Positions 3,768 through 63,463 of a stretch of DNA of 64,000 bases are shown piece by piece. Each line of letters starts with the position of its first letter. Within the stretch, counting starts at the first letter, position 1. Origin of the DNA: Pseudoxanthobacter soli DSM 19599 (GTDB lineage: Bacteria; Pseudomonadota; Alphaproteobacteria; Rhizobiales; Segnochrobactraceae); NCBI RefSeq assembly GCF_900148505.1, contig NZ_FRXO01000003.1:372001-436000 (forward strand), read 5' to 3'. The position numbers and the translations under genes are program-made. Under the pieces are notes generated by a model. That model saw only the letters and a program-made list of their open reading frames with translations, ran no database searches and was not told the DNA's origin.

Positions 3768-3925
3768 CGCTTCTCGCACCACCGGTCGGCACGCCCACGC
3801 GGGCGCCCGGCCTCGCCCGTCACAGCCGCCCGGTAGGGTCGCGGCGCTGCGACGCCTGCCCGCGCTAACGGAAAGACGCCGGGCTTCACGGGCGGGCGCT
3901 TTCCTCCCGATCGGAAAGCGCTTTA

Positions 3926-4037
3926 GAGCATATCCCGTTCAGATCGGAGCGATCTGAACGACAAGGATATGCTCAAGCTTTTGAATCTGGAGCGATTTCT
4001 GGTCGATCTGATGATTCCATCAGATCGGAAAGCGCTC
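3926..4037 (+). repeat. 112-bp dispersed palindromic repeat, copy 1
   Basis: One of three full copies (others at 33916-34027 and 63352-63463), about 90% identical to each. It folds into two hairpins joined by a short AAGCTTTTGA-type linker. The first pairs GAGCATATCC with GGATATGCTC around an inner GTTCAGATC/GATCTGAAC stem; the second pairs GATCTGATG with CATCAGATC. The right edge touches the ppc stop codon (4038-4040). Just to the left, GCGCTTTCC (3896-3904) and GGAAAGCGC (3913-3921) form a further small hairpin resembling the right end of the element. It probably shapes the 3' end of ppc mRNA and separates it from fixL. Confidence 0.85.
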
Positions 4038-17590: not shown

Positions 17591-17691
17591 GGGTGGGAGG
17601 CTGGCACGATGACCCGTGCCGCATCTCGTTGGGGCTGCTTCCTTCCGGACCTGACCCGGTTGGCGAGTGGCTCGTCCACCACCAACCTCCC
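17591..17691 (-). ncRNA. ffs: Signal recognition particle RNA (4.5S type)
   Basis: On the minus strand the conserved apical domain reads GGTCAGGTCCGGAAGGAAGC, the Ffh-binding hairpin with its GGAA tetraloop. The ends pair as expected: GGGAGGTTGG at the 5' side with CCAGCCTCCC at the 3' side. The about 100-nt span fits the small bacterial form lacking an Alu domain. It targets nascent membrane proteins with Ffh and FtsY. Placement just upstream of dnaX is common in alphaproteobacteria. The exact 3' end is not certain to a few bases. Confidence 0.95.
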
Positions 17692-19070: not shown

Positions 19071-19133
19071 GAGCATGTCCCGCCCGGATCGCCCGATGCG
19101 GGCTGCAACGTCATGCTCCAAAGCGCTTTCCGG
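19071..19133 (+). repeat. Degenerate left-half copy of the dispersed palindromic repeat
   Basis: Begins CTAGAGCATGTCCCG and closes with CATGCTCCAAAGCGCTTTCC, so the GAGCATG/CATGCTC outer stem and the AAGCGCTTTCC block of the 112-bp family are retained, while the inner hairpin has diverged to a GC-rich one. It lies between the EamA transporter and zapE. Confidence 0.55.
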
Positions 19134-19237
19134 ATGGCCGGGGATTTCCGTCCGGCCGGAAACCCGCCGGAGCTTGAGCCTCACGTCCGCATCGTCCCCG
19201 GCGCCTCTCCGGCGCTGCCATCCGAACAGGTTTCCCC

Positions 19238-33915: not shown

Positions 33916-34027
33916 GAGCATATAGAGTTCAGATCGGATCGATCTGAACGATAAGGATATGCTCAAGCTTTTGACTCTGAAGCGATTTCCTGTCGATCTG
34001 ATGAGTCCATCAGATCGGAAAGCGCTC
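33916..34027 (+). repeat. 112-bp dispersed palindromic repeat, copy 2
   Basis: Same length and orientation as copies at 3926-4037 and 63352-63463, differing from copy 1 at about ten positions. The outer left stem is weakened (CATATAGA against TATG), but the GTTCAGATC/GATCTGAAC and GATCTGATG/CATCAGATC stems are intact. It fills the gap between the convergent hydrolase and DUF1989 genes and may serve as a bidirectional 3' end. Confidence 0.85.
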
Positions 34028-60712: not shown

Positions 60713-61154
60713 CACGGCCGCGCGAAACTGATTTGCCGGCAAAGTCCGGCAATTTTTCGTGTTCCGCCGCGCGCCTGCGGTCGCGCCTGCGCAACCCCGC
60801 GCCATCGCGACAGCCGGCGGCCTGTGGCCCGCATCCGCTGAAGGACCGGCGGAATCCCATGCCCGTTCAGCCTCTTGCAGGCGACCCGGCCTTCGGGCCG
60901 GACGCCCTCGGTGCCATGCGAACGTCATTCGGCCGCGGCGCCGGGCGACAGCAGGGCCTTCCGCGCCCCGTCGCCGCCGCAGGGCGGGGGTGTCCGCAAA
61001 CATTGTCACATTACCGTCGGGCAACTATGTTTCTGATGGCGGTTAACGGTTCGCAGGCGCCCGACGAAAAGGGTGTTGTGAGCGCGGGGCCGGAACGGCC
61101 GGCGCCGGGTTGGCTGCCGGGCCACCAGTGAAGCCCGCCGCCATCGGAGGAAGC
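60713..61154. other. Intergenic region upstream of olsB
   Basis: 442 bases between the monooxygenase and olsB. Apart from the promoter candidate at 61003-61031 there is no supported feature; a frame continuing from the left in phase with nothing recognisable was discounted. Confidence 0.5.
61003..61031 (+). promoter_or_regulatory. Candidate olsB promoter
   Basis: TTGTCA (61003-61008), 17-base spacer, TATGTT (61026-61031), about 124 bases before the olsB start codon. It lies in a locally AT-rich patch. Confidence 0.45.
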
Positions 61155-62195
61155 ATGAGACGATCGACGCCGCCGTCTTCCGATGTCCTTGCCGAAGCGT
61201 TCCCGAGCCGCCGGGCCGGCGCGCTCGGCCTCGTCGATGCCGGTGCCGGCGTCGCGCGCACGGCGATGACCGCCCTGATGTCCGCCAACCCCCGGTTCGG
61301 CGAGGCCGCGCTTCCCTTCAGGCCGTTGGCGCCCGCGGGCATCCGCATTCCCGGCGGCCGCCGCGAGCCGCTCGATCCGAACGCCCCGACGCTCGGCCGC
61401 CTGGGTCCGCTGGAGGTGCGCCTCGCCCGCACCCGGCAGGAGATCAAGCGCTCCCAGTCGATCCGCTACAAGGTGTTCTACGAGGAGATGTCGGCCATCG
61501 CCGACGCGATGGCGATGATGAGCCGGCGCGACGTCGATGCCTTCGACGACATCTGCGACCACATGCTGGTGATCGATCACGAGGCGCCGGCCAAGCGCTT
61601 CCAGCGGCGCAAGCCGAAGGTGGTCGGCACCTACCGGCTGCTGCGCCGGGATATCGCCGACCGCTACGACGGCTTCTATTCCACCTCGGAGTTCGACCTC
61701 TCGCCCCTGCTCGACGCGCGGCCCTACCGCCGCATTCTGGAGCTCGGCCGGTCGTGCGTGCTGGAGCCCTACCGCTCCAAGCGCACGCTGGAACTGCTTT
61801 GGCACGGGGTATGGACCTACACGCTGGAGCACGGCTGCGACCTGATGATCGGCTGCGCCAGCCTCGAGGGCACCGACCCGGATCTCCTGGCGATGCCGCT
61901 GTCGTTCCTGCACCATTTCTGCCGCGCGCCAGACGGCCTGCGGCCTTCGGCCCTGCCCGACCGCTTCGTGGAAATGAACCGGATGCCGAAGGAGGCGATC
62001 AACGCCAAGGCGGCGCTCCATGCGCTGCCGCCGCTGATCAAGGGCTATCTGCGGCTCGGCGCCAAGATCGGCGACGGCGCGGTGATCGACCACCAGTTCG
62101 GCACGACGGACGTGCTGATCGTGCTGCCGGTCGACGAGATCAACACGCGCTACATCAACTATTACGGCGCCGACGCCAGCCGCCACGCCGGCTAG
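61155..62195 (+). CDS. olsB: L-ornithine N-alpha-acyltransferase OlsB
   Basis: Transfers a 3-hydroxyacyl group from acyl carrier protein to ornithine, the first step of ornithine-lipid synthesis at the inner membrane. Family blocks are present: GPLEVRLARTRQEIKRSQSI then RYKVFYEEM, DHMLVIDHE, VVGTYRLLR, LELGRSCVLEPYRSKR, and GCASLEGTDPD. Length is 346 residues; an N-terminal extension of about 85 residues with little complexity precedes the domain. ATG at 61155 follows GGAGG at four to eight bases. olsA, which would complete the lipid and is adjacent in some relatives, is not here. The TAG stop overlaps the edge of a palindromic repeat. Confidence 0.88.
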   Translation: MRRSTPPSSDVLAEAFPSRRAGALGLVDAGAGVARTAMTALMSANPRFGEAALPFRPLAPAGIRIPGGRREPLDPNAPTLGRLGPLEVRLARTRQEIKRSQSIRYKVFYEEMSAIADAMAMMSRRDVDAFDDICDHMLVIDHEAPAKRFQRRKPKVVGTYRLLRRDIADRYDGFYSTSEFDLSPLLDARPYRRILELGRSCVLEPYRSKRTLELLWHGVWTYTLEHGCDLMIGCASLEGTDPDLLAMPLSFLHHFCRAPDGLRPSALPDRFVEMNRMPKEAINAKAALHALPPLIKGYLRLGAKIGDGAVIDHQFGTTDVLIVLPVDEINTRYINYYGADASRHAG

Positions 62196-62258
62196 AGCGC
62201 TTTCCGATCGGATGGCAACATCCGACCGACATGAAAACGCTCCAGACTCAAAAGCTCG
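62195..62258 (-). repeat. Right-half copy of the dispersed repeat, inverted
   Basis: On the minus strand it reads CGAGCTTTTGAGTCTGGAGCG ending in GGAAAGCGCTC, matching the right hairpin and linker of the 112-bp family; the stem is CATCCGACCG-type with a GCAA loop. The left half is missing. The remaining 311 bases to the cytochrome gene hold no other recognisable feature. Confidence 0.75.
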
Positions 62259-62569
62259 AAAATAGTCCGCCGGACCGGCTCTCCGGACGACGGGGCTTGA
62301 TGGCGGGGCTGTGTCCGGCGCCGGGCTTCCGTGCGCATGCCGTTCCGGCCGTCGCCGTCCCGCGCGTACCGGCCGATCGCCCGGAGGATCTTCGGGATGC
62401 CGCGCCTGTCGATCGCCGGGACGCAGAACGGCCATTCCCAACCGTGCGCGTGCTTTGTAGTCTGAAACGGTTCCAAAATGCTTCTCGGCCGGCCCGACGT
62501 GTCGGGGCGACCTGAAGGCATCCCCGCTGCAACGACCGGAGCATGTTCCGGGCTCAGAACGTGGCATCC

Positions 62570-63351: not shown

Positions 63352-63463
63352 GAGCATATCCCGTTCAGATCGAACCGATCTGAACGACACGGATATGCTC
63401 AAGCTTTTGAAGCCGGGGGGATTTCTTGTCGATCGGATGAGTCCATCCGATCGGAAAGCGCTC
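63352..63463 (+). repeat. 112-bp dispersed palindromic repeat, copy 3
   Basis: Full-length copy in the same orientation as copies 1 and 2. In its second stem GATCGGATG pairs with CATCCGATC, where copies 1 and 2 have GATCTGATG and CATCAGATC: both sides changed together, which keeps the pairing. It lies in the 3' region of pnp. Confidence 0.85.

Follow-up and report, generated by a model that had tools for sequence, protein, structure and literature searches.

A 112-bp palindromic repeat with two bulged hairpins occurs in the window, the 64-kb stretch of DNA analyzed here (C3:372001-436000 of the source genome, G000, a 5.16-Mb draft in 27 contigs), and belongs to a family that is patchy across genomes and strongly amplified in this one. 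The element is probably a non-autonomous, MITE-like unit of the CIR/Bru-RS/RIME kind, which would duplicate TA on insertion at YTAR and keep its arms complementary through template switching.

Architecture, copies and spread of the element

The element consists of two inverted, homologous hairpins joined by a 15-nt linker, each hairpin carrying a 4-nt bulge that faces the linker. The first follows the design GAGC-N6-CG-arm-CG-ACAA-N6-GCTC, and the second is its inverted version. Specifically, hairpin 1 (element positions 1–49) reads GAGCATATCC-CGTTCAGATCG-AAC-CGATCTGAACG-ACAA-GGATATGCTC, while hairpin 2 (positions 65–112) shows an equal plan on the opposite strand, GAGCGCTTTC-CGATCTGATG-loop-CATCAGATCG-ACAA-GAAATCGCTC. 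The terminal inverted repeat of the whole element comprises GAGC/GCTC and otherwise imperfect matches only, its ends being the homologous hairpins, and the element resembles a back-to-back pair of transposon ends. A short recombinant at G000:C3:301330-301393 (in L063) combines hairpin-1 arms with a hairpin-2 foot, both ends thereby contributing to a single-hairpin element.

Three full copies lie on the plus strand of the window. Copy 1 (3926..4037) comprises hairpin 1 at 3926–3974, the linker at 3975–3989 and hairpin 2 at 3990–4037, and immediately 5′ of it, at 3901..3922 (+), lies the leftover right end (element positions 90–111) of a further copy, which is visible in the sequence and weak when scored alone (E 3.3). 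Copy 2 (33916..34027) occupies a convergent gap with an ORF about 6–7 bp off on each side, and copy 3 (63352..63463) is flanked by CTG and TAG. Two partial copies accompany them: a half copy on the minus strand at 62195..62264, covering model positions 43–112 (linker and hairpin 2) and extended to 62283 by the covariance model, and a degenerate copy at 19071..19167 (+), which nhmmer missed at E up to 1. With filters off, the family covariance model regains the full copies at E 3e-27 to 4e-22, the half copy at 9e-11 and the degenerate copy at 1e-5, the best further place in the window having E 0.056; the full copies were among the sequences used to build the model, which leaves the two partial matches as the independent ones. 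On either strand, folding is much stronger in the full copies than in 200 shuffled sequences, none of which does as well (z −4.7 to −7.2). The sole Rfam match in the window is a small SRP RNA (RF00169, 58 bits) at 17593–17690 (−). This RNA is overlapped by an EamA-like ORF listed from 17581 (+), whose real start is therefore probably further on.

These results agree with the preliminary description, which had listed three 112-bp copies at 3926, 33916 and 63352 of about 90% identity, with partial copies at 19071 and 62195: the lengths are exact, the pairwise identities of the full copies are 91.1, 90.2 and 85.7%, and both partial copies are regained at those positions. It had also called all copies intergenic, which holds for 35/35 full and 17/17 partial copies (52/52) across 656 kb, as judged by a crude codon-usage gene finder (82–84% coding, overlap tolerance 25 bp). 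Neither of the two results that it had named as refuting it, a lack of further copies in the genome and copies without stem covariation, occurs. The covariance model built from 32 copies of this genome (A2, R1) gives at least 150 copies, all 150 scored candidates matching with a worst E of 5e-10 (the best 150 of 3597). BLAST gives at least 95 matching pieces with 40 of 256 candidates scored, many of the pieces being reverse-strand shadows of the palindrome.

In the unselected stretch C3:1-456000, which includes the window, nhmmer finds 25 full and 14 partial copies, and in C2:1-200000 it finds 10 full and 3 partial copies; extrapolation from 25 per 456 kb suggests a total of about 280 full copies. 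The set of 151 full copies used below mixes unselected stretches with places picked for matching and is thereby skewed to well-preserved copies, and 44 partial copies are excluded from its pair counts. Of the full copies in the 656 kb, 19 lie in tandem gaps (of 315 such gaps overall), 12 in convergent gaps (of 84) and 4 in divergent gaps (of 81), and at least one gene end adjoins 31 of the 35. The element's first base after the TA is G, and a TA-containing stop codon hit by an insertion is therefore restored as TAG; at the half copy, the border TA and the element's first G form the TAG stop of a GNAT ORF at 61110–62195.

At least 7 of 41 genomes, the source genome included, match at E 0.01 under stricter filters with 92 candidates scored per genome: G012 has 12 rows and G002 has 4, reverse-strand shadows counted, and four others have 1–2. 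An equal frame with other arms is found in Stappia sediminis, S. albiluteola, Hongsoonwoonella zoysiae and Breoghania corrubedonensis, by a pattern that required the last AA of the bulge, and also in G012, G002 and G043, with remoter forms in G031 and G004. G043 joins one hairpin-2 frame to two alternative arms, and hairpin 2 of Breoghania holds a GTTCAGA arm resembling hairpin 1 of the source genome. Across the order, an ACAA-bulge pattern matches 20 of 297 genomes, 15 of them with palindromic arms by eye; the matches in G018, G035, G211, G238 and G255, whose arms are not palindromic by eye, are set aside as chance. Since a reversed control pattern also gave one or two matches in each of 25 genomes, isolated pattern matches carry little weight. 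Among 72,556 plasmid records searched with blastn, the element itself matches 3, all from Methylosinus, and the G004 and G031 forms give 310 and 320 matches, mostly in Rhizobium and mostly to part of the query. Eight such plasmid places were read, and by eye Ochrobactrum and Rhizobium sp. BT04 have two hairpins. The Rhizobium leguminosarum plasmid NZ_CP016289.1 (L243) carries a single-hairpin form between CTA and TAA, which suggests that a single hairpin alone may be a unit. The phage records hold no match to the element.

Landing site and candidate mobilizing enzymes

The flanks were tabulated for the 97 of 151 full copies that score above 110 bits with nhmmer ("young" copies). On the left, 95 have Y at −3, 81 have T at −2 and 75 have A at −1; on the right, 78 have T at +1, 74 have A at +2 and 92 have R at +3, and beyond ±3 the composition is that of the background. 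A complete border TA is present on the left in 66 and on the right in 61. For the 46 young copies that keep TA on both sides, the reconstructed targets are CTAG (19), TTAG (12), CTAA (9), TTAA (2) and others (4), so that YTAR accounts for 42/46, against 181/1319 intergenic NTAN words (14% background). Since Y and R are two-fold degenerate, the bases at −3 and +3 are suggested to derive from the target. Tandem copies are separated by a 2-bp spacer, TA or TG. In the Stappia group, YTA precedes 12 of 15 copies by eye, the search pattern having fixed only A at −1.

The Y-TA/element/TA-R arrangement thus appears to be the signature of a TA target duplication. This reading is drawn from the flanks, because no empty site was found: the flanks of copy 2 could not be aligned in two same-family genomes. 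The YTAR/TA signature bears on the target duplication of CIR, left unknown in a 2007 review, and restricts where to look for the enzyme that disperses such repeats. In the source genome, the IS630-type DDE_3 domain (PF13358) has 0 matches, and no transposon ends matching the element occur at its PF13340/PF01609 loci or at 29 PF13340 loci of relatives. IS5-type elements, flanked by CTA/TAG or CTA/TAA, have the same target signature but were rejected as the autonomous partner, since AGGCTTGTGGGGATT and GGAGGTGTGG, the ends they carry, are unlike GAGC-N4-TCC.

The IS5-type element with AGGCTTGTGGGGATT ends lies at several contig ends (L004, L199, L200, L205 and L206; C10, C15 and C16 of G000) and probably breaks the assembly. 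The second IS5-type element, CTA/GGAGGTGTGG../TAA (L201/L207; G000:C1:787182-787897), has a TGA stop inside its transposase frame. At L004, an end of the AGGCTTGTGGGGATT-type IS and a repeat copy meet at a TA common to both. Likewise, in G043 (Stappia sediminis), the IS-like ends at L091 and L110 (GG....GGACTCAT) abut the repeat border with TA shared. These three contacts parallel Brucella IS711 at Bru-RS: in the accessible portions of two reports (PMC2266754, PMC3163539), IS711 duplicates the TA of YTAR and is described as preferring Bru-RS repeats.

Covariation and apparent correction of the hairpin arms

The stems covary strongly. In the 40 pairs of the 151 copies, both sides are changed in 123 cells, compared with 36 expected under independence and 35–52 when partners are slid. 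Of these, 101 are Watson-Crick, against 7–15 with partners slid by 1–4, and 66 remain without the commonest pair, against 7–13 slid; they comprise 32 kinds at 25 pairs, 15 of which occur once. The cross-genus alignment (A3; 22 sequences, excluding L097, L182, the other sister hits of L187 and the shorter G031/G004 forms) has 93.1% of cells paired and 21 of 40 pairs changed on both sides. Its covariation score is 0.447, against 0.172 in shuffles that ignore relatedness (0/500 as high) and at most 0.122 with slid partners. One of the five measures, the number of further pair types, shows no excess across genera (43 versus 44.5 shuffled).

The preliminary description had read a paired change in the second stem of copy 3 as evidence that the folded form is under selection or is copied as a hairpin. 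The change, T-A to G-C at pair 84–97, is real. It is not a fresh change of copy 3, because G-C occurs in 30 of the 151 copies (T-A in 99) and also in the L040 copy of the same-family genome G002; as evidence for selection on the fold this single change therefore falls away, and the idea of hairpin copying is directly supported by the copies described below, whose arms look corrected in one step. Copies with G-C are on average older, differing from the consensus at a mean of 13.6 positions against 6.8 in the 99 T-A copies. On a weak tree the pair needs 21 changes, and its state is recurrent or poorly resolved and marks no clean single subfamily.

Apparent arm correction takes the form of changes in hairpin length. 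Four copies carry a complement of the bulge in the opposite arm, all four being 53-nt perfect palindromes, and in one of them TTGC faces a mutated GCAA. Thirteen others have a 45-nt, bulge-less hairpin 1; five of these are perfect, two of the five with private two-sided changes. Among copies with A at base 8, T stands opposite in 3/3 bulge-less and 1/26 canonical ones (p 0.001), two of the three bulge-less copies being probable siblings. Of the 17 length-corrected copies, 16 have a nearest neighbour of neither corrected length. On a tree built without the length-correction columns, 16 corrected copies need 15 changes, with c147 (12 mismatches) excluded from the 17; the 21 changes at 84–97 mark this tree as weak, so the figure of 15 events is uncertain. 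The copy c127 (54 nt, TTGT in the first arm, not a perfect match) was not scored as corrected. Length-corrected and canonical copies show no difference in mean arm mismatch (p 0.14). Length corrections affect hairpin 1 in 16–17 of 151 copies and hairpin 2 in at most 2 of 151, the scarcity in hairpin 2 presumably reflecting its interrupted foot. The bulge is retained in other genera, so something besides correction is required.

Sixteen copies thus look as if one arm had been rewritten from the other in one step, with the bulge duplicated or erased. Template switching makes quasipalindromes more perfect, and an E. coli reporter loses a 4-bp insert in this way, according to the available text of PMC7202029. 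Hairpin-templated mutation, and not selection on RNA, may accordingly account for much of the compensatory change in the family.

The structured-RNA explanation, in which the repeat acts in 3′ end processing, as an mRNA stabilizer, a terminator or a small RNA and its covariation comes from a folded transcript, is unlikely. It draws on the strong covariation within and between genera and on the gene 3′ ends beside 31 of 35 full copies, whereas one-sided changes comprise 142 G-T and 139 A-C cells, an equality that gives no hint of one RNA strand being under selection. Moreover, the opposite strand folds equally well, a terminator scan at copy 1 finds one site, outside the element, presence is patchy (7 of 41 genomes), and mutation accounts for the arm corrections. 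More doubtful still is a CcrM-related element, whose GANTC sites would serve cell-cycle methylation control and whose copies would be kept for that purpose. GANTC is present in the linker of 119 and the hairpin-2 loop of 100 of the 151 copies, and in 73 and 74 of 83 young copies, with more than one letter at the N position, and the accessible text of PMC2229807 gives published CIRs a terminal-loop GANTC. Against this, column counts show the fixed letters of both sites to be no better conserved than adjacent columns, and the linker site is absent by eye from 8 of 15 Stappia-group copies.

Marginally less probable again is a REP/BIME-type element moved by a RAYT, the two inverted bulged hairpins forming a BIME. 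The preliminary description had likened the repeat to REP and RIME and proposed a check for a RAYT gene. The dispersed, intergenic, RIME-like palindromic family stands; the REP/RAYT system is not supported, as PF01797 (RAYT/Y1 transposase) has 0 matches in the source genome under a search that does detect it in 5 of 14 named genomes (E. coli among them). The ends are GAGC/GCTC, neither GTAG nor CGTC, and the flanks carry the TA/YTAR signature, for which we know of no counterpart among RAYTs. What speaks for a RAYT is the form itself, two inverted, imperfect, bulged hairpins between genes in hundreds of copies, together with the cutting of single-stranded tagged hairpins by RAYTs as described in the accessible part of PMC3733652.

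The preferred account, a TA-duplicating element with arms kept by template switching, would run as follows. A transposase acting in trans, absent from or unrecognised in the source genome, would insert the element at YTAR and duplicate TA. Copies lie between genes, where the border TA and the first G can re-form a TAG stop. At replication, as the variants suggest, the imperfect palindrome would fold and the nascent strand copy the opposite arm (quasipalindrome template switching), matching both arms in one step. Template switching would explain much of the compensatory change without selection on RNA, and it helps explain arms that differ between genera yet stay complementary. A more tentative extension, which we regard as a possibility with the odds against it, combines these parts: the asymmetric 4-nt bulge, present in both inverted hairpins and again in other genera, would mark the ends for a TA-target transposase that reads folded ends, replication would keep erasing the bulge by template switching, and CIR, RIME and Bru-RS would evolve by hairpin-templated turnover of the arms, in which nothing but the bulge and the GAGC feet stays fixed. 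If so, the few hundred copies would form a natural genome-wide reporter of template-switch mutagenesis. One genome supplies at least 150 copies of a natural imperfect palindrome whose 4-nt bulge is well defined. The usual reading of covariation in repeats is selection on structure; several copies here suggest that a two-sided change can come about in a single templated step, which calls for caution with covariation arguments for repeat-derived RNAs.

Relation to known palindromic repeats

A literature search recognised no description of this family or of CIR-type arm correction, most subscription papers, including the 1995 and 2003 originals, lying outside its range. CIR elements (CcrM-associated intergenic repeats) reach up to 21 copies in Caulobacter, and the copy number here is far above that figure. 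In the accessible text of the 2007 review (PMC2229807), CIRs of Caulobacter and Brucella are about 110 bp long, with two inverted repeats and a linker, GANTC in a terminal loop of one stem, TA termini and a target duplication entered as "?", and a 2024 review (PMC10969869), as far as accessible, calls them strictly intergenic. The length (112 bp), the two inverted repeats with linker, the TA termini and the intergenic placement are all found here, as is the loop GANTC at the frequencies given above, without extra conservation; the YTAR/TA signature seen here differs from the "?" of that review. The likeness extends, in the descriptions available, to Bru-RS1 and Bru-RS2 of Brucella, related palindromic repeats of 103–106 bp in or beside which YTAR-targeting ISs land, as such ISs do here at L004 and in G043; this likeness is drawn by description rather than by sequence. 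A related form occurs in Ochrobactrum (L237).

RIME (Rhizobium-specific intergenic mosaic element) comprises two large palindromes within 108 bp. It shares with the element, in the accessible accounts, the character of an intergenic rhizobial palindromic repeat; in contrast, the element itself matches only the 3 Methylosinus plasmid records, the G004/G031 forms being those found mostly in Rhizobium. REP/BIME sequences with a RAYT are likewise inverted, imperfect, bulged hairpins that lie between genes in many copies, whereas the element has no GTAG/CGTC tag, no Y1 transposase and flanks of TA/YTAR. The MITEs RUP, Correia/NEMIS and ERIC resemble it, in the accessible text of PMC2229807, in being non-coding, about 100–150 bp long, with TA ends and presumed mobilisation in trans, and they have the target duplication that the flanks suggest for the element; they differ in that the element has two separate end hairpins rather than one end-joining fold, and no DDE_3 match in its genome. 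Collectively, its features place the element, by comparison with the accessible descriptions rather than by sequence comparison, as a lineage-specific, highly amplified member of the CIR/Bru-RS/RIME kind.
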